In this document: piece by piece, positions 1,007 to 17,887 of the stretch
Position numbering within the stretch: position 1 is the first letter of the stretch
Layout of the letters: the number at the start of each line of letters is the position of its first letter
NCBI RefSeq assembly: GCF_026210795.1
Contig: NC_089442.1
Coordinates: 1,426,001-1,490,000, forward strand
From: Rhizophagus irregularis
Taxonomy: Eukaryota; Glomeromycota; Glomeromycetes; Glomerales; Glomeraceae
Length of the DNA stretch: 64,000 nucleotides
Reading direction: 5' to 3'
Translations under genes and position numbers: made by a program
The notes under the pieces: model-generated
The model's input: only the letters and a program-made list of their open reading frames with translations
Databases searched by the model: none
What the model was told of the DNA's origin: nothing

Positions 1007-1885
1007 TCATATCTTAATTATACAATCATTCAAATCTTCAGTTATACCAGTAGAAGAATCTTGTGAATCTTCACTTTCAAGAATTTTATTCAATTCTTCA
1101 CTAGTAAAATCAAGTAAGCGACTTGTATAATGTGCCTGTGGATGAGATTTAGTAGTAAGTTTATTGTTATGTCCAATTGGTGCATTTATAAATTCCATAA
1201 TATTGCAATTTAATTCTTCATTAATATCTTCAACTTTCACTACAAATGGACGAAAAATCCATTTTCCAATAATATCTACCACTTCTTCAGATGATGGCCT
1301 TTTTGATGAATCTTCATTCCAACATTTTTTCATCAAATTTGCATAACATTGTGGAGTATTTTCAATAATTTCAGGACGTTCACCTTTACAAATACTTAAA
1401 CTAAGTTGAAAATCATGTGCTCTATTATTAAATGGTGGTACCCCAGATGTAAATTCCCACATAATCATAGAAAAACTATATATATCACTAGCTGGAGTAT
1501 AAGGTTTTCCTCTTAAAACTTCAGGTGCCATAAATGGTATAACACCATAAATATCATATTTTTTCAAAAATGATTTTACAGGTTGGCATAATCCTAAATC
1601 ACTAATATAAATTTTACTCTCATTATGATTTAAAATATTGCCATCATGAAAATCACAATGAATAAGATTTTGATCATGTATCTTTTTAAGTCCAGAAATA
1701 ATTCCATATAACATATATAATTTTTGATTCCAATCACTTTTGATTATTCTTGTTAAGTTTCCTCTTAAATTACCTTTGTTTGCATAATCCATTACTACCA
1801 TATATTTTAAAGTATCTGGATCTTTTGTAAACCCATAAAAATAAATAATATCATATGAACTTAAACAACTTTTATGATATTTCCA
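1007..1885 (-). CDS. Kinase C-lobe exon (3' exon of the kinase gene)
   Basis: Starts just after an acceptor TATAG at 1886-1890 with WKYHKSCLSSYDIIYFYGFT and runs open for 292 codons to the stop. It holds the hinge (MVVMDYANKGNL), the catalytic loop HCDFHDGN, the DLG motif, a MAPEV activation-segment end and the C-lobe motif SDIYSFSMIMWE. The tail after the domain (LLDFTSEELNKILESEDSQD) is typical of the arbuscular-fungal kinase family. Catalytic Asp and metal-binding Asp are present, so activity is possible if the N-lobe is joined to it. Without the exon at 9015-9231 it has no glycine loop. Confidence 0.85.
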   Translation of the reverse strand, partial: WKYHKSCLSSYDIIYFYGFTKDPDTLKYMVVMDYANKGNLRGNLTRIIKSDWNQKLYMLYGIISGLKKIHDQNLIHCDFHDGNILNHNESKIYISDLGLCQPVKSFLKKYDIYGVIPFMAPEVLRGKPYTPASDIYSFSMIMWEFTSGVPPFNNRAHDFQLSLSICKGERPEIIENTPQCYANLMKKCWNEDSSKRPSSEEVVDIIGKWIFRPFVVKVEDINEELNCNIMEFINAPIGHNNKLTTKSHPQAHYTSRLLDFTSEELNKILESEDSQDSSTGITEDLNDCIIKI

Positions 1886-4800
1886 CTATAAAACAATAAT
1901 ATTAATTAATATATTAATATAAATAAATTATAATTTAAATTACTTTGCAGAAACCTGGTATTTTGTTACTAAGTCGTCACATGAACGACTCTGATTCGTA
2001 AGAAATTCGTATCGATCACGTTACTGCATGTTATCATAACGAAATCGTCACGAATCGTAGCAAATTCGGTTGAGAATTAGTAGCAAAGCTGTGACAAATT
2101 ATAATTATCATTTTTAAGAAATTGTTCTTAGCGTTTAAAATTAGCCGAATAAATTAATCTGAAACTTTTTTACAATGTATTGGCGAATATTCAACGATGG
2201 AATGACTAATTTTTTTAGATATATTTTTTATTGAAAAACATGAAAAAAATTAAATAAAAATTTACAATGTATTGGCGAATATTCAACGATGGATGACTAA
2301 TTTTTTTTAGATATATTTTTTATTGAAAAACATGAGAAAATTAAATAAAAAGAGCAAATTAATAATATTTTTTTTTTAAGTATAAAAGCGAAATTAAATG
2401 TTTACAAATATAAAAAATAATAGTTAAAAATTAAATTAATAAATATGCCAATGAATAATAACTGAAAATAATTAAATTTTCAAGTTGCTCGCGAAATTAT
2501 TGCCATTTCGTGATGGTACGGCAATTTTTTGCGTTAATATATCTAGGGCTTTGGTAGCGTCAGTATCTCTGGATACATAATTGACAACAAATGCCTTCCG
2601 AATAAACTGGCGCAAAATGTTTAGAGAGTTTTTTGAGCGTAACTCATCTATCTTTGTGGCATTCAACCACCTCTGCAAGACGTTCATTACAACAGTATCA
2701 TCAATGAATGCACTTATTTCCTCCTTTTGCGGCAGACGATCACTATAAAAAATTGTTAAAACTGATTAGAAAACTATTGTAAGATTACACACAACTTCTA
2801 TAAGCATTTTCTAAATAGTACTAACCTTTCCAATCTTTCCTTAAAGGAATTGATTAATCTTTCTATCCCATCAATAAATTTGTTGCGAAAATCGCCAAAA
2901 TTCCTATTGGCTAACCGAAGCCATTCGATACCATCAGCCGAATTAAGATCACATTTGACGATTTTTCGCACTAATTCTTCAAGTGCACTTTTTGGAGGAT
3001 CACGGACCCGAAGGAAGAGGCATTTTAATTCCTCCAAAAAGTCACGGCCAATTTTTGTCTGTAATTTAAAATAAAAATGTGGGTTAATTAAAAATTTAAA
3101 ATAAAATAAACTGAAAAAATCAATTCGAATAGAATCTATTAAAATATTACTTTGTCTTGAGCTTGTTCTTGTTGCAATTGTGGTGGCGCAGATACACATG
3201 GTACAAATGATGAACTGTTTGCGACTGGCGTTTGCATCGATAAATACAAGCTGTAAGCAAATTGTAAGACACTCGGATTAGCACATAACCATAGACAGAG
3301 TTGGTGGATAGTGCCCATTTCACGAAAAGGTGTTGGAAGTTCGGGATCAATAGATCCAGGCATACTATTGACAGCTCCAGATGCATTGTTTGACATATCA
3401 CGAAATGGAGTGAATATGTTACTAGTATTCATGTTTTTTGTTATTGACGTAAGAGTTCTTGGAGGTGAACTAACTGGAGATAATGATAATTGAAATGTAG
3501 CATCTTTGCGTCTGATGTCTACATTATCATTACAATCATTGCCTCGATTTTCATCTAAAGGAGAAATTGTGAATAAAATATAATAAGCTTTACTAATCAA
3601 TCGATTGAAGAAACTTACCCGTGAGATCATCATCACTACTGTATAAAAGTTCATTAACTGAACTTGAAGGAATAACGGTTTTCTGTTATTTTTTTTGACC
3701 ACGCTTATTAGGACTTTCGTTAACTGGTTCTGGAACTAAAGGAAGGAAAAAAGCATGAACAATATATTCGCAAGCCTTCAGTTATCAATTAAAGCAAACA
3801 TTAACATGAAAGATGATCGTCATCGCTAATAATTAATGGTTCATTAGTAAGTTCCTTCTGCTTTTCCTTTTGACCACGTTTAACAGGAGTTTTGGCAACT
3901 GGTACTTGGATTTCAGTATTTAGAACTAAATAAAAAGGCATGAATAAAGTGATTACAAGCCTTATCTATTAAAGCAAAAAATACCCCAAAAAAATACCAA
4001 AAGGTCCATTATTTGGCTCCTCCTGCTGCTTTCTCTTTCGACCACGTTTAACAGGAGTTTTGGTAACTGGTACTTGGATTTCAGTTTCAAAAGGCGTAAA
4101 CAAAATAATCACAAGCCTTGCCGATTAAAGCAAAGATACCCAAAAGAAAATTACCAGAAGGTTCATTATTTGGTCCCTCCTGCTGCTTTTTCTTTCAACC
4201 ACGTTTAATAGTAGTTTTATCCGCCATAGAAGATTAATTTGTAAAATAAAAATAATGGTTGTAATTTAAAGAAGGAAACTGATACAATTATATTTATTAA
4301 TAAAATATTATTATTTATAATGTAAAAAAAAAAGAAAACCAGACTTTATTAATTAACCTTTTATTATATAATAGTTTAAATAATAATTAAAAAATAAATT
4401 GCTATGAAAAACGCGTAATTAAGCTAAAATAGTTTGTCGCGTAAATTTTTGCTTATCATATAATAGTCTAATAATAGTTAAAAAATAAATTGCTATGAAA
4501 AACGCGTAATTAAGCTAAAATAGTTTGTCGCGTAAATTTTTGCTTATCATATAATAGTCTAATAATAGTTAAAAAATAAATTGCTATGAAAAACGCGTAA
4601 TTAAGCTAAAATAGTTTGTCGCGTAAATTTTTGCTTATCATATAATAGTCTAATAATAGTTAAATAAATTACTATAAAAATGTTAACGCGTAATTAAGCT
4701 AAAATAATATAAGTTAAACTAATATATAAATAAGCTTTATTTAAACTAAATGCGAAAACAAGTTGAAATATTTGAATGTCCATTTTCTCTTTTTTTCTTT

Positions 4801-7800
4801 TTTTTCATTCTGATAAAATTATGTTTCGCAATCGCTATATTTCCTTTAATAAACAACGCAATTATATTAGACAATGTTATGTGTTTAATGCATCTTCACA
4901 ATTTTCTACTAAAGAAAGATATACTGAAGTGGATGGTGAGTATTATTTAATTTTAAAATTGATATGTATTAGCAGTATTTTAATATATTGATATTTCAAT
5001 TCTAGGAGATGATAATATGTCCACTACTAGTAATAATGGTTTCATTCAAATGGATATATATAATGACGAGAAGATAAATGAAAAGTTAAGTAAAAAAAAT
5101 TCTGAAGTCACAAGTGAAGAAAATTCTGAAACTACAAGTGATGATGAAGATGAAGTCACAAGCGAAGATCTTGAAACTGCAAGTGACGATGAAGATGAAA
5201 CCACAAGTGAAGAAGATCCTGATGAAAATGAAGTCACAAATGAAGAAGATTTTGATGATGAAATAAATGTTGATAAGTCTTTCAGTACTGAATAAATGCC
5301 ACGAAATTTTGGTGATTTTGCACCATACTTTAGCAATATTACAGAAGTATTATTTTTTTGCTGGATGCAAAAACATAACATCTGTAAGTTGAATTTTTTT
5401 ATTAATTTTGAATAATAATTTGACTCATAATAGTTTTTATTAGCCACCCGTGCATACGATGAATTAGTGGATATAATTCGTCATCCACAGTTCAGGAGTG
5501 AAGATGTCATACCAAACAGTCGACGGTTTAGAAAGTACAGACAACGATTGCCGTTACTTCCAATCAAATCTCGTAGAGTTCACATTTCTGACAAGAAGAC
5601 TCCATCCACGTCTAAGAAGATTGGAAGAGCATATTCTTTATCTATATCTGACATTATTTGTCAAATTCTAAACAATCCTTCATTATTTAACAAGATGTAT
5701 TTTGGACCAGGCCAAGAAGTTGCAAATAATAAAGAACTTTGGCATGGAAACATCTGGAAGGAATCATCAAGATTTGGGCAATCATCTATTATAATTGCTA
5801 ATGGTAATGTCCTACTATTGATGATAAATTTTCTTTGTAAAGTCATTTGTTGTTAGTTTGTACTTAATTAATTTCTTTCATAGTAACATATCACTCTGGG
5901 GATTTCGTAATATATAAAGAATCTAATGAAAGAAGATTTGGTCGTGTATTAGCCATTATCCAGCAAGATAACAGGCTAAAGATCAAGATCCAACGTATCT
6001 TAAGATACGAAGAGTTGCCAAAAAATCTGCAAAGTAATAGCCGAAAAGAGCGATCACGAGAAGGCGAGGTCTGGTTTTTTGACAGAGAAATGGATAATGC
6101 AATTGCAATTGTAGAATTACAAGCAATAGTTAAACTTGTATTGATCAGTATTCTTTATGATAATGTTAGCAATGGACATTCAATTAAAATTCGCGAAATT
6201 CTTTACAAATATAATGACCACTGGAAATTAAGAGATGTTAAATACTCTTATCAGCATCCTTCTGAATTTGCACTATTAGAAGAACCAGTAACAAATCGTC
6301 CAGTTTATAAGCTATTCATTGACCTGTATTATGATGACTTTGGGACGCTCCGTAACGTCTATCATTCACTAGGGGGTGTCTACATACAGGTCGGAAATAT
6401 GCCATTTTACGAAAGAAGATACCTTAAGAATCACTTTGTTCTTGGCTTTGTGCCTTTTGGTGGTTCTTTTGATGAATTTATAAAGCCTTTCATTGCAGAA
6501 ATGAAAGTATTAGAGAAAGGCAAGATTATGAATATCCAAGGAAAAGAGTGTCTTGTGATCGCGAGTTTAGGTGATATCACTAGCGATTTGGTACAAGGCA
6601 ATGATTTGGCTGGTGTGAAACGGCATGGTGCAAATAGAGGTTGCCGCACCTGCAATGCAACAAAAGATTCTTTAACATCTGATGTTGACTTGCCACTTAT
6701 CTCTCGTTATCATCAACAATCAGATAAACAATTTGAGGAAATATGTGCAGCATCAACATTGTCAGAATGTAAAAATCTTGCTACTGAATATGGTTTACAT
6801 CTGCAACCACCAATACTCAGTCAATTGCAATGGGAAAGGCACTTGCAATCACCTCAAGATGCTTATCATGCCACTGCTGGAAAAGTTCTGAGGTTTCTTA
6901 AAATAACAATTGATGCTCTTTTGCCAGAAGGAAAGTCAAAATTTATCATAACTTGGAAAAATTTTGAGTATCCAAGAACCTGGCATAAATTGCCAAATCC
7001 AATTTCCCACATAGATAGTTTTATGATGTCTGATTGTTTGCGATTGGCTATGGTGATTCCATTTATACTTAATAGATTCTTAAAACCTCAGCATTTCAAA
7101 CAATCCGAAATTGAGAAGTTTCAGATGCGAATGGATGTTTCTCGCAGTAATTTGGCAATAAAACTCTGGGTGAAGTGTTGGATATTAGTTTCAAAAACAA
7201 TGGCTATGGTATTTAAAAGTTCCTTTACAGAAGAAGATTATGCTGAACTGCGTAAATGCTTGGATAATGAACGAAAACTCTTATCACAGGTATATTATAT
7301 GACTAAAATTGTTTGATATATATTTATTGTAATCTCATTACTATGATTTGTTAAATTTCACATTATAATTTATTAGTAAAACATTTCATACAAAGTGTAT
7401 AATACTAATTATTGAATTAATTAGGCGTTTAAAGACTTTGAAAATCTTCCGAATCTACACGTCAATTTTCACCTTATGCAACATGCAAAAAGTTATGCAA
7501 CACTATTGAATACTAGCGTTGAAACAAAGGAGATGATGCATCGGATATTAAAAAGTGCTGTGCCACGAACAAACCTAAAAAATGTGAGTCTGGATCTATT
7601 AAAACACTATACTACATTATTTGCAGTGCGTCATTTACTAGATGGTGGTATAGATATGCGCTTTTCCACATCAAACCATGGTTTTATGAATCTTCCACAC
7701 CACTTGCAGCGCATGATGAGTGACTGGTTCATCATAAAAGGTGAAGTTAATATTGAAGATGATGCAGACGAAGGTAAGATGAATAAACAATTTGTATTCA

Positions 7801-10800
7801 TATTGAAATAAATATTTTTACTAAACTGTGTTTAAAGTTTATTTAAAAAAGCGTATTGTTCGAAGACATGTTGATGCATCACTATTGTTAAATTTTCAAG
7901 CGGAATTGGCGTTAGCATATGAAGATTTAGAGGATTATTCTATGAACCAAAACAGTTCACCTGTATTCTTCGAATATGCAAGATTTTATATAAAAGAAAA
8001 TGATGATATTGTTCAATGCCGTTTGCATGTTGGAGATATTGTCACAATCAATACCGAAGAATTTGGAGGTAGTTTCGCGGTTATACGAGCAATATTTTAT
8101 CATCAAAAGAATAATTTCCGTTTTACTTTCATTATCATCGATTGGTTTGAAGATATGAACCGTACAAAACTTGGCTGCCCAGTATATCGATTGCAAACGG
8201 CAAATAATTGGCGAAGAATCTTTTCTATTTCTCTAGTTAATGCAGTCAATACTGTACATTTCGTTCATGATTGCAAAGATGGTGAATGTGCTGGGGGAAA
8301 CCACGACTTTAGAAACAATTTGTATATGAGAAATTTGTATTTGTTTAATGCTGTTTAATTGTTTATTAATTCTAAAGGTTCGAAAATGAAATAATAATGA
8401 TCTAATGCTAATAATTTAATATTACTTTACTAATTCTTTAACACTTCGACAATAAGATATTAATAAAAATTTATAAATTCTTTATGATTTCGATAATACA
8501 AATATGTTAATAATTTACATTCTCGTGAATATTAATTTATTGATAATTCACAATTACGAAAATATTAATTTACAATTTCGAAAATATTAATTTACAATTT
8601 CGAAAATATTAATTTACAATTTCGAAAATATTAATTTACAATTTCGAAAATATTAATTTACAATTTCGAAAATATTAATTTACAATTTCGAAAATATTAA
8701 TTTACAATTTCGAAAATATTAATTTACACTTTCGAAAATAATAATTCATAATTTCGAAAATATTAATTTATTAATTATTTACAACTTCGAGAATATTAAT
8801 TTATTAATTATTTACGGTCTTGCAATGAATTTGGTAACGGTTTTCTTAATATGCAGTAACTGTTTGTAGACGAATTAATTGGCAAATTCTTTTTTAAATT
8901 TAATCAAGTTATTACCGAATACTTGTCGTTCAGGATGCGATTTTGTTACGATCCGCTTGCGATTTAGAATATTTCTGCAAAGTAAAAAAAAAAATAAATA
9001 AAATATCATCATACTTCACTTAAAAATTCATTTAAATTTTCACTTAAATTATCATAACATTTAAGAATTACTTCATTATTATCTTCACCATAAAACCAAA
9101 TAGCTTTGTATATAGTACCAAATCCTCCTTTATCAAGATATACAACATTTTTAAATTTATTATAAGGAATCCATTTTAATTTTTTTTCCAAAATAAAATT
9201 ATCTATAATTGTATTTCCACTTTTTCCAAATCTATAAATTTTAAATAATTAAAATTATTATGAAAGTTTATATTAAAAATTACACAAAAATTTAAGATTA
9301 AAATCAACACCTACTCTAAAATTTAAATAGAATTTTAATATAATATATGTCTTAGTTTTTGTATAATTATATATAATAATTACCCATATTTCACAACTTA
9401 CCAACTAAAGTAACAGAAATTTTATATGGAAGTATTCAATTAATAAATAAATATTTATGAAATATATAACAATAGAAACAACAAATAACTTACAAGCTAT
9501 ATTATTAAATAATTTTTATAAATAAAGAATTTAGTTAGTTTAAAATTATATATAAATAAAGTAATAATAAAATTAAATAAATAGCTTACGCCCTATATTA
9601 TTAAAGAATTTTTAAATAAAGAATTTAGTTAGTTTAAATTATATGTATATTAATTAAATAAATAATTTATAACTTACCAACTAAAAGAAATTACAAAATA
9701 ATTTTTTAAATAAAGAATTTAGTTAGTTTAAATTATAGAATTTTTCTTAATTTACGCTGGGGTGTTCATACACTTGTCACGTGACTATTAAAAGTTATGA
9801 AAAAGAAATTTTAATAAATATAATTTTGAAACAATTCTTTCGAGGGGTGGGTGGTTACTTAGATAGGTGCCGCCTCTTGTAGAAAGCTCCGCTCCCATGC
9901 TTGTAATACCCCTAAATATTTTTTTTAAAAAATATGATTTTAAAAGGAACATGCAGTACGTGTATTTTTGTCTGTTCTGCAAGTTCCCTTAAAGCGTCAA
10001 AGTTGATTTTGAATGTCATATTTAACAAATTCTTTTTTTTAGTTAAACTTAATTCTGCCCAACATTAAATGATCGGCATAGAAAATTTACTTTTTGGAAA
10101 CCCGTGTTTGAACACCCCGTGTACAAATATAATCGTCTAAATTACATGTAAATATTATATGAATTTGTTATAATAGAATTAACTTACCATCTATAAATAA
10201 TTTTTTAAATAAAGAATTTAGTTAGTTTAAATTATATATATATTAATTAAATAAATAATTTATAACTTACCAACTAAAAGAAATTAAAATAATTTTTTAA
10301 ATAAAGAAATTATATGTAAATATTATATAAATAAGTAATAATAGAATTAAGTAAATAACTTACTCCCTATATTATTTAAATAAAGAAATTAGTTAGTTTA
10401 AGTTATATGTAAATATTATATAAATAAGTAATAATAGAATTAAATAAATAACTTACTAGCTAAAAGAAATTACAAAATAATTTTTTAAATAAAGAATTTA
10501 GTTACTTTAAATTATATGTAAATATTATATATATAGAATTAAATAATAACTTGGAACTTACGATCTATTTAAATAAAGAATTTAGTTAGTTTATATTATA
10601 TGTAAATATTATATAAATAAGTAATAAATAACTTATAACTTACGATCTATTAAATAAAAAATTTAGTTAGTTTAAATTATATATAAATATTAATTAAATA
10701 AATAACAATAACTTATAACTTACCAACTAAAAGAAATTACAAAATAATTTTTTAAATAAAGAATTCAGTTAGTATTATATAATAAGTAATAATAGAATTA

Positions 10801-12670
10801 AATAAATAACTTATAACTTACGATCTATTTAAATAAAGAATTTAGATAGTTTAAATTATATGTAAATATTATATAAATAAGTAATAGTAGAATTAAATAA
10901 ACAACTTATAACTTACCAACTAAAAGAAATTTTTTAAATAAAGAATTTAGTTAGTTTAAATTATATGTATATTATTATAAATAAATAACTTACTCCCTAT
11001 ATTATTTAATAATTTTTAAATAAAGAAATTAGTGAATTTAAATATTATATAAATAAGTAATAATAGAATTAGATAAATAATTTATGACTTACTAACTATA
11101 ATAAATTACAAAATAATTTTTTAAATAAAGAAATTAGTGAATTTAAATTATATGTAAATATTATGTAAATAAGTAATAATAGAATTAAATAAATAACTTA
11201 TAACTTACGATCTATTTAAATGAAGAATTTAGTTAGTTAAATTATATGTAAATATTATAAATAAATAATAGAATTAATTTAATAACTTATAACTTACAAT
11301 CTATTTAAATAAAGAAATTAGTTTAAATTATATATAAATAAGTAATAAGAGAATTAAATAAATAACTTATAACTTACGATCTATTAAATAAAGAAATTAG
11401 TTAGTTTAAATTATATGCAAATATTATATAAATAAGTAATAATGGAAGGATTTAATATTTTTTCGCATATGCGATGTATCGCTCCCCATAATAACTTGCC
11501 GATCTTTGCCCAAATTTACTAATTCTCAATTTTTTTTTATTTTTTTACATTTTTGGCGCGAATCTTTATGTACCTATTGTAACACTTTTAAAAACCATAT
11601 AGTATGCGTATTTTTGATTGCTTTACAATTTTATTAGTATATCAAAAAGGGTTTATAATACTATTTTTGATTTTTATATGGGGATGTGATATTTCGCGGG
11701 TGCGATTAAAACAAAACCCATAATAGAATTAAATAAATAATTTATAACTTACGATCTATTTAAATAAAGAATTTAGTTAGTTTGAATTATGTGTAGTATT
11801 ATATAAATAAGTAATAATAGAATTAAATAAATAACTTACGCCCTATATATTAAATAATTTTTTAATAAAGAATTTAGTTAGCTTAAATTATATAAATAAT
11901 AGAAATATAGATATCTACTATAACTTACACCCTAGTATTATTAATTAATTATTAGTTAAATATAAATAATACAAAAGTATTTACTGTAAATTAAATATAT
12001 CACTTACAATCTAGTATTTAAATTAAGAATATAATTAGTTGAGTTATATAAAATATTAAACAAATAAATATGATATTATAACTTACCATCTGCAATACAA
12101 TTAATTATTAAATAATTAATTAAATAAAGAATTTAGTTATTTAAATATTATGTAAAATAATTAAAATAAAGTAAAGAATTGAAGATTTAAATAACTAATA
12201 ACTTACTGACTATCATAGTATTATATTAGTCATTAAATAAAATAATTTAATTACATGAAATGTAATAAAAATGACAAGTAATTCTATTATTATTCAATTA
12301 TAAGATAACCTATTAACTTACGAGCTAAATTATTTAATATTATTTTTGTATAATATAGTTAGTTTAAATTATATTTATATATTATGTAAGGTATGATTAT
12401 AGATAGTATAAAATGTATTTAAAAATAAAAATTTAATACTTTAGCATGTTTAATATACCTTTAGATTCCTTGATACTGCTTTCTTCAAATTCTTCAGAGT
12501 CATTTCCTTTGAATTTCTCAGAGACACTTCCTTCAAATTCTTTAGTGTTGCTTCCTTCAAATTTAATATTACCAGAAACTAGATAAATTTGTTTAAAATA
12601 TTAGAATTCTAATTGTATTAAATATTTATACTATAAATATGTTATTACCTTTATCATTATTGAAAGCCAT
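1007..12670 (-). CDS. TKL-like protein kinase gene with single-codon exon array, predicted TM segment, and a transposon in one intron
   Basis: Predicted exons in minus order: 12649-12657 (ATG at 12657; another ATG at 12670 is out of frame), 12459-12578, twenty-five 3-nt exons between 12324 and 9402, a 5-nt exon 9311-9315, N-lobe exon 9015-9231, and final exon 1007-1885. Phases agree throughout (9+120+75+5+217+879 nt), giving about 434 residues: a basic leucine-rich 8-residue repeat region, a predicted 25-residue transmembrane helix, then a kinase domain. Kinase motifs seen are the glycine loop DKGGFGTIYKA, a lysine in VILK, HCDFHDGNIL as catalytic loop (HCD for HRD), SDLGL as DFG equivalent, and an APE site in MAPEV. 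The last intron (9014 to 1886) is 7.1 kb because a transposon sits in it. Joining the two kinase exons is well supported by phase and family motif order; fusion of the array to the kinase is inference. With the 12670 ATG the array is read in another frame and the kinase is not reached. Confidence 0.6.
1943..1953 (+). repeat. Left terminal inverted repeat of the transposon
   Basis: Eleven bases CTTTGCAGAAA, perfectly complementary to the right end at 8972-8982; with the flanking bases the complementarity reaches 14 bp. Just inside (1975-2090) the motif TCGT followed by AC, AAG or AGC recurs and could be subterminal transposase-binding sites. Confidence 0.85.
2169..2350. repeat. Direct repeat, two ~92-bp copies, left end of transposon
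   Basis: The segment beginning TACAATGTATTGGCGAATAT at 2171 is repeated at 2263 with only small indels, including a shared tail ending TTAAATAAAAA. It lies between the left terminus and the minus-strand gene; subterminal repeats of this kind are usual in CACTA elements. Confidence 0.8.
2472..4227 (-). pseudogene. Transposon second gene, TnpA-like, with duplicated exons and a premature stop
   Basis: The likely start is the ATG at 4225-4227 (MADKTTIKRG), diverging from the transposase gene. Three tandem exon-plus-intron units (about 4155-4227, 3990-4100, 3815-3930) encode variants of PVTKTPVKRGRKRKQQEEPN, a basic AT-hook-like motif. Downstream exons include about 3146-3560 (proline/serine-rich, with TPFRDM and TPFREM repeats), about 2830-3060 (GRDFLEELKCLFLRVRDPP) and a last exon from about 2740 to 2472 (QRWLNATKIDELRSKN...ILRQFIRKAFVV). 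Codon 11 of the first exon is TGA where sister units have CGA, a C-to-T change that breaks the frame. No database family is recognised; the TnpA-like role is inferred from position and basic repeats. Confidence 0.6.
4376..4690. repeat. 91-bp tandem repeat between the divergent transposon genes
   Basis: GCTATGAAAAACGCG recurs at 4401, 4492 and 4583 (period 91), followed by a degenerate fourth copy near 4671. Each unit contains ACGCGTAATTAAGC and GTCGCGTAAATTTT. It occupies the shared promoter region of the two transposon genes, so it may be a transposase-binding or bidirectional promoter array. Confidence 0.9.
4821..8358 (+). CDS. tnp2-like (CACTA/Plavaka-type) transposase, six exons, one in-frame stop
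   Basis: Exons 4821-4935, 5006-5383, 5444-5803, 5884-7289, 7425-7773 and 7838-8358 all have GT-AG borders and compatible phases, giving 1043 codons. Features in order: an acidic repeat (EVTSEEN, TTSDDEDE); a tnp2-type lead region (PYFSNITEVLFFCWMQKHNI, then AYDELVDIIRHPQF); a candidate catalytic segment LFIDLYYDDFGTLRNVYHSL; a CxxC site in HGANRGCRTCNATKDSL; a C-terminal block (NLHVNFHLMQHAKSYATLLN) resembling the DUF4218-like region of such transposases; and a further domain after residue ~870. An in-frame TAA at 5293-5295, followed at once by ATG, interrupts exon 2, so it may be a decayed copy or translation may start at 5296. The family call rests on motif order, not a search. Confidence 0.75.
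8556..8760. repeat. 22-bp tandem repeat near the right end of the transposon
   Basis: The unit TTTACAATTTCGAAAATATT plus AA is repeated about eight times with almost no variation, and looser versions continue to ~8810. Each unit carries the palindrome TTCGAA. It ends about 170 bp from the right terminus and fits a subterminal transposase-binding array. Confidence 0.9.
8972..8982 (-). repeat. Right terminal inverted repeat of the transposon
   Basis: TTTCTGCAAAG, the exact inverse complement of the left end, followed by TA. Confidence 0.85.
9015..9231 (-). CDS. Kinase N-lobe exon
   Basis: Follows an acceptor (TTTATAG) and ends at a donor GTATGATG (9007-9014). It encodes FGKSGNTIIDNFI, then KLKWIPYNKFKNVVYLDKGG and FGTIYKAIWFYG, then the lysine strand EVILKCYDNL, ending FLSE. 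The block SGN..ID.FI followed by W-I-P-Y and the glycine loop is the usual start of this kinase family. The next exon in frame is 1007-1885, beyond the transposon. The same exon read one frame over gives IWKKWKYNYR and a stop, which matters for how the upstream array is interpreted. Confidence 0.85.
9759..10118. mobile_element. MITE 1 (360 bp) inside an array intron
   Basis: The ends are inverted repeats, GGGGTGTTCATACAC on the left and the complement of GGGGTGTTCAAACAC on the right (14 of 15 match). The base composition is clearly different from the surrounding repeat units. The spacer around it is about 157 nt longer than usual even after removing the element, so a unit may have been lost. 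No clear target duplication was found and no ORF is credible. Confidence 0.75.
11444..11719. mobile_element. MITE 2 (276 bp) inside an array intron
   Basis: Flanked by ATAAT on both sides (11439-11443 and 11720-11724). Both ends carry an imperfect inverted repeat of about 45 bp with shared blocks TCGCA, GCGA, TATC and CCCCATA. Removing it leaves a 91-nt spacer, the normal size for the array. Confidence 0.75.
12459..12578 (-). CDS. Repeat-coding exon upstream of the micro-exon array
   Basis: A 120-nt exon with acceptor ATCTAG and donor GTATAT, made of a 24-nt unit repeated four to five times. Two frames are open. In the frame of the ATG at 12657 it reads leucine/lysine-rich repeats such as NLKEVSLR and connects in phase to the hydrophobic array and the kinase. 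In the frame of the better-placed ATG at 12670 it reads acidic repeats (KEFEGSVSEKFKGN) but then gives a non-hydrophobic array product and a stop. Which frame is used cannot be settled from sequence alone. Confidence 0.55.
12649..12670 (-). CDS. First exon of the micro-exon gene, two candidate ATGs
   Basis: Bounded by donor GTAATAAC. ATG at 12670 has purine at -3 and G at +4 (MAFNNDK). ATG at 12657 (MIK) is the one in frame with the predicted helix and the kinase. This could be an uORF-like arrangement or a sign that the true 5' exon differs. Confidence 0.5.
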
Positions 12671-15187: not shown

Positions 15188-16445
15188 CCCTATGAAAAAA
15201 AATCATCCAATTTTTGTACAATATTTGTTCAAGTCTGTGTGGAAATTGTACAATTATTGCAGATTTTTGGATAAAAATAGCTATGAAGTTTTTCAAAGCA
15301 TATTAAAAGTATGCAATTTTTGTACAACTTAAATTTAGGATATAGAAAATGTTCAATTTTTGTGTGATCTTTATACAACTTAAATTTAGGATACAGAAAA
15401 CATTCAATTTTTGTACAATAAAAATTGTGATTATTGTACAACTTGAAAATAGACTTAAATTTAGGATACAGAAAGCAATTTTTGGGTAATCCTACTATAC
15501 TACTTTCCATCTTACCTGTATGGTTACATTTGACCACTTTTAGGGTCAAATAGACCACTTTTAACCATTACAAATAGATTTTCCTAAGTAAAGTGATTTA
15601 TGCAGTAAGGTTACACAAATTTTAACTGCATATTTGCTTATAAATGGGCATCTTCCGGACCCATTGGTGAAATTTTTGTATCATCTTGTAACTAAAAAAA
15701 AGTCAAAAACTTTTTATTAGGTTACACAATTAGTTCTGACTGGAATTATAATTTGGCCAGAATTATGCGGTAAAAATCAACTCTTAAAATTATATATGTT
15801 GATCACGTGATCTGATCGTCAAAATAAATATGATGACGCGAAATGTTTTTGTTTATGTTTTCTTAACCTTTTAACTTTTCTTCAACTTTCTTTTAAAATA
15901 TCAGGTAAGAAAAACTTGTGTTCTTTATCTTTTTATTTTTCTAACTTTCTACATTTTAATGTTACTAACTTGCTTTCTTCACTAACTTCGTACTTTTTTT
16001 TATTACTAACACTAATAATTTACTTTCTTCTTTGATACTACTAATTTACTTTCATGTTACTAACATACATACTTTATTTTATTTTATTTTCTTACAAATT
16101 TCTATATTTATGATTATATTAAATTTAGTATTTTATTTATGAAATATTGTGTATATTTTTTATATTTTAAGTCAATAAAAATTTCACTTTATAAATTGCC
16201 TGTCATTACTGTAAAATTTAACCTATAATTCCTAAAATATGGCCTAAAATTTGGCTCAAAAATCACACAATAATTGTATAAATTCAGGACAAAAATAGGA
16301 TAATTATTGAATGAATTACTATGCAATAATTGTGTGATTTATTGCAATTTTTAGCACAATTATTGTATGGTCAAATATACAGAAATCGTAGTGAATTTAA
16401 TTGAATGATTTTTCAACAAAAATCACACAGACTTTTTTCATAGGG
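15188..16445 (+). mobile_element. Non-autonomous DNA transposon, copy 1 (1258 bp)
   Basis: The termini are CCCTATGAAAAAA and its complement TTTTTTCATAGGG, with a 3-bp direct duplication CGC (15185-15187, 16446-16448). The interior has repeats of A/T-rich motifs such as ACAATAATTGT and GTACAATTTTTG. The longest ORF is low complexity (FLYPKFKLYK repeats) and mirrors internal repeats, so no protein is called. It is nearly identical to copy 2 in the opposite orientation. Confidence 0.85.
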
Positions 16446-16536: not shown

Positions 16537-17887
16537 CCCTATGAAAAAAGTCTGTGTGATTTTTGTTGAAAAATCATTCAATTAAATTCACTACGATTTC
16601 TGTATATTTGACCATACAATAATTGTGCTAAAAATTGCAATAAATCACACAATTATTGCATGGTAATTCATTCAATAATTATCCTATTTTTGACCTGAAT
16701 TTATACAATTATTGTGTGATTTTTGAGCCAAATTTTTTTAGGCCATATTTTAGGAATTATAGGTTAAATTTTACAGTAATAACAGGCAATTTATAAAGTG
16801 AAATTATGAATTTTTTTTATTGACTTAAAATATAAAAAATATACACAATATTTCATAAATAAAATACTAAATTTGATATAATCATAAATATAAAAATTTG
16901 TAAGAAAATAAAATAAATAAAGTATGTTAGTAACATGAAAGTAAATTAGTATTATCAAAGAAGAAAGTAAATTATTAGTGTAAGTAAATTATTAGTATTA
17001 AATAAAAAAGTATGAAGTTAGTGAAGAAAGCAAATTAGTAGTGTTAAAAAGTAAATTATTAGTATTAGTAATAAAAAAAAGTATGAAGTTAGTGAAGAAA
17101 GCAAGTTAGTAACATTAAAATGTAAAAAGTTAGGAAAATAAAAAGATAAAGAACACAAGTTTTTCTTACCTGATATTTTAAAAGAAAGTTGAAGAAAAGT
17201 TAAAAGGTTAAAAAAACATAAACAAAAACATTTCGCGTCGTCATATTTATTTTGACGATCAGATCACGTGATCAACATATATAATTTTAAGAGTTGATTT
17301 TTACCGCATAATTCTGGCCAAATTATAATTCCGGTCAGAACTAATTGTGTAACCTAATAAAAAGTTTTTGACTTTTTTTTAGTTACAAGATGATACAAAA
17401 ATTTCACCAATGGGTCCAGAAAATGCCCATTTATAAGCAAATATGCAGTTGAATTTTATGTAACCTTACTGCATAAATCACTTTACTTAGGAAAATCTAT
17501 TTGTAATGGTTAAAAGTGGTCTATTCGACCCTAAAAGTGGTCAAATGTAACCATACAGGTAAGATGGAAAGTAGTATAGTAGGATTACCCAAAAATTGCT
17601 TTTTGTATCCTAAATTTAAGTCTATTTTCAGGTTGTACAATAATCACAATTTTTATTGTACAAAAATTGAATGTTTTCTGTATCCTAAATTTAAGTTGTA
17701 TAAAAATCACACAAAAATTGAACATTTTCTATATCTTAAATTTAAGTTGTACAAAAATTGCATACTTTTAATATGCTTTGAAAAACTTCATAGCTATTTT
17801 TATCCAAAAATCTGCAATAATTGTACAATTTCCACACGGACTTGAACAAATATTGTACAAAAATTGGATGATTTTTTTTCATAGGGA
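16537..17887 (-). mobile_element. Non-autonomous DNA transposon, copy 2 (1351 bp)
   Basis: Same family as 15188-16445 but inverted. Termini CCCTATGAAAAAA and complement; 3-bp duplication ATT at 16534-16536 and 17888-17890. It is about 93 bp longer than copy 1. The two copies face each other with 91 bp between them and could form a 1.25-kb hairpin. Confidence 0.85.

Follow-up and report, generated by a model that had tools for sequence, protein, structure and literature searches.

A run of 25 predicted three-base exons lies in a protein kinase gene of the fungus Rhizophagus irregularis, within a stretch of 64,000 nucleotides of contig NC_089442.1 that was analysed (hereafter, the window). Such arrays are not unique to the window but accompany a large kinase family, and each array that was followed far enough adjoins a member of that one family. 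We read the feature, with a probability of about 0.92, as a spliced and translated array of codon-length exons, and the translated frame appears to be one of split codons, with every codon of the segment in the window interrupted by an intron. The architecture, the reading frame, the order in which selection sees the triplets joined and the size of the family can all be read from the genomic sequence. Loci other than that of the window are numbered L001 to L040.

Between positions 9397 and 12326 the pattern AGNNNGTAAG matches 25 times on the minus strand; in the whole window it matches 28 times, against a mean of 3.13 expected, and 28 was reached in none of 100 shuffles. This count bears out the preliminary description of this DNA, which had listed 25 consecutive AG-NNN-GTAAG units on the minus strand, and the donors and acceptors of the units are as it had described them. 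In transcript order, triplets 1 to 12 are CTC TCA ATG ATT GGT GGC ATC ATC ATT ATC TTA GGA, and triplets 13 to 25 are TTG ATC TTG ATC ATC CTA GGA TTG ATG TTG GGC CTT TTG. The spacers had been given as 70-117 nt, which is right for 22 of the 24 internal introns (74-117 nt); the other two measure 372 and 507 nt and contain extra DNA. Inside one array intron, at positions 9759-10118, lies an element of 360 bp whose 15-nt ends are inverted (93% complementary); it touches no triplet. About 260 extra bases lie in another array intron, at about 11450-11710, and a search of positions 11420-11760 found no inverted ends for them. The features of the gene are collected in Table 1.

Table 1. Predicted exons of the kinase gene that carries the array (positions in the window)
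Feature	Position	Strand	Remarks
Exon 1, 22 nt	12649..12670	-	ATG start, MAFNNDK, ends in phase 1, donor GTAATA
Exon 2, 120 nt	12459..12578	-	degenerate 24-nt repeats (KEFEGS-like), ends in phase 1, donor GTATAT
Array, 25 three-base exons	9402..12324	-	predicted from pattern matches and stop avoidance in the family
First 3-nt exon, CTC	12322..12324	-	
3-nt exons 2-7	12207-12209, 12087-12089, 12008-12010, 11929-11931, 11840-11842, 11753-11755	-	
3-nt exons 8-13	11378-11380, 11298-11300, 11209-11211, 11093-11095, 10994-10996, 10917-10919	-	
3-nt exons 14-19	10822-10824, 10724-10726, 10644-10646, 10562-10564, 10457-10459, 10364-10366	-	
3-nt exons 20-24	10271-10273, 10188-10190, 9678-9680, 9590-9592, 9494-9496	-	
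Last 3-nt exon, TTG	9402..9404	-	
One-base exon (A)	9315..9315	-	acceptor TTTTAG, donor GTAGGT; required by the kinase frame
First kinase exon	9015..9231	-	A|TTT GGA AAA AGT..., FGKSGNTIIDNFILEKKLKWIPYNKFKNVVYLDKGGFGTIYKAIW...
Second (main) kinase exon	1010..1885	-	fits protein kinase profile PF07714 PK_Tyr_Ser-Thr, E 1.1e-33; continues the same kinase after the intron

Both exons that precede the array in the window gene end in phase 1, the triplets preserve that phase, and translation of the array gives ALNDWWHHHYLRIDLDHPRIDVGPF. A codon in phase 1 takes its first base from the end of one triplet and its other two from the start of the next. Any multiple of three bases followed by the one-base exon leads to phase 2, and the first base of the kinase exon after its AG completes the codon. 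The preliminary description had missed this one-base exon; a model of the window gene that omits it meets a stop shortly after entry into the kinase exon. With it, the split-codon model is open over 145 codons, MAFNNDKVSGN...ESK-ALNDWWHHHYLRIDLDHPRIDVGPFE-FGKSGN.... The fragment encoded by the first kinase exon scores below the cut-off when compared alone with PF07714 (E 0.088, 12.5 bits).

Some 7 kb of extra DNA sit in the intron that separates the two kinase exons; the ends of this intron are, by eye, like those of the paralogues, so that the window gene would need to remove a 7-kb intron by splicing. The extra DNA (1941-8984) resembles an inserted DNA transposon with ends, judged by eye, of TACTTTGCAGAAA and TTTCTGCAAAGTA; imperfect inverted repeats (2004-2040 and 8840-8876) and plus-strand open reading frames (5434-8358) lie inside it. 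Elsewhere in the window there are two near-identical open reading frames of 112 amino acids in inverted orientation about 2 kb apart, at 15229-15567 on the minus and 17507-17845 on the plus strand. Several similar two-exon genes with a main open reading frame of about 390-430 amino acids lie at 24729-53417, and they resemble BTB-type proteins.

The genome searched comprises 146.7 Mb in 32 contigs, and a 24-base unit pattern allowing up to two mismatches matches it 1517 times, compared with 2 matches for the reversed pattern. Eleven clusters on four contigs, among the matches listed for this pattern, make up L001-L011; all eleven lead into the same type of kinase exon, L011 to its first bases only. 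A 34-base pattern for the one-base-exon site (up to three mismatches) occurs at 33 places, of which seven had already been sampled and 20 of the other 26 were retrieved; a looser version gives 54 matches against 3 for a reversed control. At least 151 matches in the genome were found by a protein search for the kinase exon in which a 99-residue composite served as query (150 of 3797 candidates were scored), and nearly all of those listed begin at query positions 22-39, near the exon boundary (29-30). When intron-free contiguous relatives were sought among the matches listed, two were seen to begin earlier, at 16 and 19. In the first of them, C11, we interpret the extra residues as the last intron read through, since the signature of a one-base exon lies just past them; the second contains one stop. 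Nine kinase-exon matches were sampled at rough steps of the ranking, and the 2.7 kb upstream contain a triplet array and a one-base exon in all nine. A rough estimate, from the 304 of 1083 units that fit the unit pattern by which L001-L011 had also been chosen, puts the total at about 5,400 three-base exons in the genome. Arrays contain from 8 (L021) to 79 (L005) recognised units, and L013 and L027 have three units each. Some copies may be dead, such as the last two; L007 probably is, since its first kinase exon is split by an insertion whose ends are, by eye, inverted. A single DNA-level search of the genome for a spliced retrocopy of the array gave no match, and such a blank shows nothing.

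If neighbouring triplets are joined and translated in phase 1, then stop codons should be avoided across their junctions. The idea for this test arose from the triplet lists of L001-L011 and the window, and it was applied to 982 neighbour junctions with spacing of up to 130 bp in 30 arrays; longer junctions were left out, as were L013 and L027 (fewer than six units), which were also excluded from the composition counts. Six candidates scored as 4, 6 or 7 nt entered as triplets, by their first three bases or by a one-base shift (one in L009), and one-base candidates were not counted as units. Adjacent junctions contain no stop (0/982), whereas 35.4 were expected (sd 4.8; the minimum in 2000 within-array shuffles was 18), and no distinct pair type contains a stop, compared with 23.2 expected. 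Reversed neighbours give 30 stops, and phase 2 gives 157 against 127 expected. The result is the same in L012-L031, which were retrieved before the test (0/510 against 20.0 expected), and in L032-L040, nine genes retrieved after it (0/199 against 7.09 expected, with zero reached in none of 2000 shuffles). For the window array alone the test is powerless, since 0 stops are expected. Neighbouring triplets lie about 100 bp apart in the DNA, so we see no other origin for this pattern than RNA that holds them joined, in order, and that is translated. Selection thus sees adjacent triplets joined in order and translated, which supports the earlier view of a selected protein-coding gene with three-base exons in succession and not of a decaying satellite.

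The same data bear on whether the units could be a non-coding minisatellite in one long intron, its motif kept by copying or as recursive-splicing points and its triplets absent from the mRNA. The units are indeed a diverged tandem repeat, true block duplicates occur, and in the window a model that bypasses the array and keeps the one-base exon leaves the kinase open; isoforms bypassing the whole array may exist in this gene. Such a repeat, however, does not account for a complete lack of split-codon stops at adjacent junctions alongside no avoidance at lags 2, 3 and 4, where lag 3 gives 41 stops in 819 junctions (29.8 expected, an excess) and lag 4 gives 28 in 745 (27.2 expected); in L032-L040, lags 2 and 3 show no avoidance either. 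Nor does it account for exon length being fixed while intron length is free, or for a diversity that is higher in exons than in introns and, within the exon, lowest at codon position 3, as described below. We consider a minisatellite of this kind very unlikely.

Skipping one unit, the lag-2 case, also addresses combinatorial splicing, by which an arbitrary subset of triplets would be included in each cell and very many in-frame variants produced in place of constitutive inclusion. Any subset would keep the frame, and 868 of the 898 single-skip junctions are free of stops. The 30 that do contain a stop, however, are about as many as the 32.3 expected, and L032-L040 likewise show 7 in 180 against 6.3 expected. 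Because stops at lag 2 are not avoided, skipped products would not belong to the selected product, and selection on average does not seem to treat them as functional. Free combination of triplets is thus an unlikely account, and inclusion of all units in order is preferred.

Across the family, exon 1 has 13, 19, 22 or 25 bases and exon 2 has 24-138 nt. A single regular expression was run on 30 arrays; in 22 it located an open exon 1 that ends in phase 1, and in 14 of these 22 also exon 2. It had no match in five arrays and chose a stretch containing a stop in three (L003, L012 and L028), although L003 and L028 have, by eye, a shorter exon 1 of the correct phase. All 15 matched lengths of exon 2 (24-138 nt, L003 included) are multiples of three. 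At the other end, the kinase exon is entered by AG and one base followed by in-frame codons in 39 of 41 loci, the window included, and the search of these loci found no such entry motif in L011 and L031. Of the 39 placed loci, 38 have an AG-N-GT site of the one-base-exon type no more than 260 nt upstream of the kinase exon, and in L020 it is farther away. In many loci a weaker AG-T-GTAA site follows about 31 nt past the one-base exon, and using both sites would break the frame.

The preliminary description had instead taken the triplets of the window as whole codons (phase 0) that spell a hydrophobic transmembrane helix. Its count of nine Leu, eight Ile, five Gly, two Met and one Ser is correct in phase 0, so that every triplet falls among these five residues, but phase 0 does not appear to be the translated frame. 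Exon 2 enters the array in phase 1. Family-wide, the 982 triplets include three stops in phase 0 (TGA in L026; TAA and TAG in L031), and charged or polar residues occur, among them Arg (66), Asn (28), Lys, Asp and Glu. Stop avoidance beyond that of shuffled arrays is seen in the split-codon frame only, although phase 0 cannot be tested by shuffling triplets. A five-base exon AGTAG at the end of the array, in place of the one-base exon, would connect phase 0 to the kinase and rescue the hydrophobic frame; the paralogues L001-L011, however, lack a donor for it and have AG-A-GTAAGT at the one-base exon, or C for A. The hydrophobic appearance can be explained by the middle base of the units, which is T in 58% and in phase 0 gives NTN codons (Leu, Ile, Met, Val, Phe); in the split-codon frame this T is the third codon position. 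The third-base variation that had been called silent falls at first codon positions in that frame, which reads, by eye, as a hydrophilic segment. A membrane helix is thus scarcely credible.

Amino-acid composition agrees with split codons, since divergence from ordinary exons is lowest, that is, closest, in this frame (0.078, compared with 0.259 and 0.157). Codon-usage scores with stops excluded barely distinguish the three frames (-6.06, -5.91 and -5.96) and do not help as a test of frame. Speaking against the split-codon frame, G is found at 32% of third positions in the arrays, far above the 9% in ordinary exons. The last base of the triplets is nearly even (A, C, G and T at 26, 21, 27 and 26% in L001-L031 and the window), in loci of about 81% A+T. 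The L031 array is divergent, rich in CTT, CAT, TTT and TGG, and has TAA and TAG as triplets and no split-codon stop.

Exon length was measured with all lengths from 0 to 12 nt allowed and candidates scored by the profiles of the flanking splice sites. Three bases is the length of 1041 of the 1064 candidates; 17 have one base, two have 4 nt, three have 6 nt and one has 7 nt. The one-base candidates are terminal in 16 of 17 cases, the single interior one being in the array of L022. Units that would break the frame are this interior exon, AG-T-GTAAG near position 1115 of L022, and two apparent 4-nt exons in L009. Intron lengths vary, with a median of 97 and a range of 63-125 nt among the 982 introns with spacing of up to 130, and they are spread evenly modulo 3 (337, 315 and 330). 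These introns begin with GTAAGT in 864 of 982 and end in TAG in 911, and in 974 of them translation continued through the intron in the split-codon frame runs into a stop. The branch-like motif mentioned in the preliminary description was counted family-wide: 697 of 982 introns have CTAAY at 12-60 nt upstream of the acceptor, so that it is frequent and falls short of universal. Many arrays start with CTC-TCA-ATG-ATT-GGT or a related series, and CTT-TTG is the ending of many.

The diversity of exons and introns was compared in pairs of units with 30 identical flanking bases on each side, taking the nearest pair in the same array or between arrays. Within arrays the exon differs in 30.5% of nearest pairs (n = 206), compared with 1.2-7.1% for three-mers of the intron (n = 156-197); between arrays it differs in 69.0% (n = 109), compared with 0-36.5% (n = 29-94). 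Two looser settings of the flanks gave similar rates of difference. Codon position 3 is the base that differs least, both within arrays (0.08 compared with 0.16 and 0.21) and between arrays (0.14 compared with 0.56 and 0.58), and a splicing constraint on the middle base of the triplet may be the cause of its low variation. The excess of exon diversity fits either diversifying selection or conversion of introns while the amino acids are held. Block duplicates, weighed for exon hypermutation as a source of this diversity, gave mixed results: in L009, two blocks of ten introns with 0.8% intron divergence share all nine internal exons, another pair of blocks with 0.2% intron divergence differs in two of four exons, and in L014, at about 2% intron divergence, most exons differ.

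Copying of introns may also have gone on independently of the exons. Introner elements are near-identical introns, many to a genome, that are scattered over many genes; introner-like copies might have spread and replaced each other here, with the introns driving the growth of the arrays and the peptide as a by-product, which would be compatible with our main explanation. There are 95 pairs of identical full-length introns, all within arrays, and 41 of them differ in at least one flanking exon, that is, they show the introner pattern of the same intron between different exons. L014 has many near-identical introns beside unrelated exons; the type of intron 3' end and the donor variant GTACG track the exon class, and intron ends and exons in this locus look like linked modules. 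Unlike introners, the fungal introns stand in tandem with codon-length exons and, in each array followed far enough, adjoin one kinase family. Insertion into coding sequence would not yield an exact three-base spacing, and the signal of a 3-bp target duplication is slight, with 115 identical neighbouring exons against 96.9 expected (sd 8.7). Such independent spread is possible but rather unlikely as the account of the arrays.

For the spliced and translated array, the following mechanism is proposed. Each unit would consist of a spliceosomal intron (63-125 nt among those counted) and three exon bases, and splicing would pass through the array like a recursive-splicing ratchet that holds one codon's worth of bases, keeping three at each step. 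Every intron, having its own donor and acceptor and in most cases a branch-site-like motif, would be removed by intron definition, perhaps in order. The units being in phase 1, each amino acid would draw its codon from two adjoining exons, one base from the end of the first and two from the start of the second, and the terminal one-base exon would lead into the kinase frame. Units are symmetric and three bases long, so the gain, loss or skipping of one alters about one residue and seldom makes a stop, which lets an array lengthen or shorten (8 to 79 units). The outcome would be a segment that is hypervariable and framed by two constant ends, ALxDW... and ...FEFGKSGN. By eye, the peptide between the ALxDW-like start and FEFGKSGN differs almost wholly among paralogues; predicted examples are ALNDWWHHHYLR and IDLDHPR. 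Splicing of this kind, its stepwise course and a role of the segment as a variable recognition or linker region are what the sequence pattern suggests, and the segment may serve in recognition or be merely a tolerated linker.

We know of no kind of system in which a stretch of protein is pieced together from a tandem row of tens of uniform codon-length exons. A ratchet point contributes no base to the mRNA, whereas the fungal arrays would leave three translated bases at each step; zero-length AG-GTAAGT sites number two in L001-L011 and the window, none of them in the window array, and a length of three is the rule. In recursive splicing itself, as described for Drosophila and vertebrates, a juxtaposed acceptor and donor allow stepwise splicing (PMC8605326). 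The micro-exon genes of Schistosoma mansoni have exons of 3-81 bp regularly interspersed with introns of up to 5 kb (PMC10526429). They resemble the present arrays in their many short symmetric exons, multiples of three in length. Organism and protein are unrelated, however, and here a fungal kinase carries uniform three-base exons, up to 79 in an array, with introns that are short and mutually similar, codons that are split and a one-base exon leading into the kinase frame. Microexons of a single nucleotide and of 3 nt exist in Arabidopsis, in Drosophila homothorax and in plants (PMC4674806, PMC7392893, PMC8831610); these are single as far as the sources describe them, whereas the fungal ones come in arrays of tens in many paralogues. 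No report of arrays of codon-length exons, in this fungus or elsewhere, was found among the papers listed in searches of the open literature. On a cautious view, the arrangement could be classed as an extreme form of micro-exon gene.

More tentatively, and with appreciable doubt, the arrays could act as a genome-wide generator of diversity, in which more than 100 kinases would carry an anchored hypervariable segment under diversifying selection, possibly for recognition of self and non-self or of partners. The segment could then be likened to a complementarity-determining region, with fixed anchors and varying length and sequence, and it would evolve by single residues through the gain, loss and exchange of intron-plus-triplet units with the frame kept. 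The setting for such recognition would be a fungus with many nuclei in a common cytoplasm.

If transcripts confirm the predicted joining, the spliceosome of this fungus would accurately join dozens of consecutive three-base exons in order, across a large gene family. These exons would be far below the size that allows acceptor and donor complexes to be bound together, and the arrays would thus offer a direct test of exon-definition against intron-definition models. They would also represent a new route by which protein length can evolve by single residues without loss of frame. Ordinary annotation would probably miss the amino-terminal halves of many kinases in this important plant symbiont, and several thousand such exons would make the fungus a natural laboratory for minimal exons.
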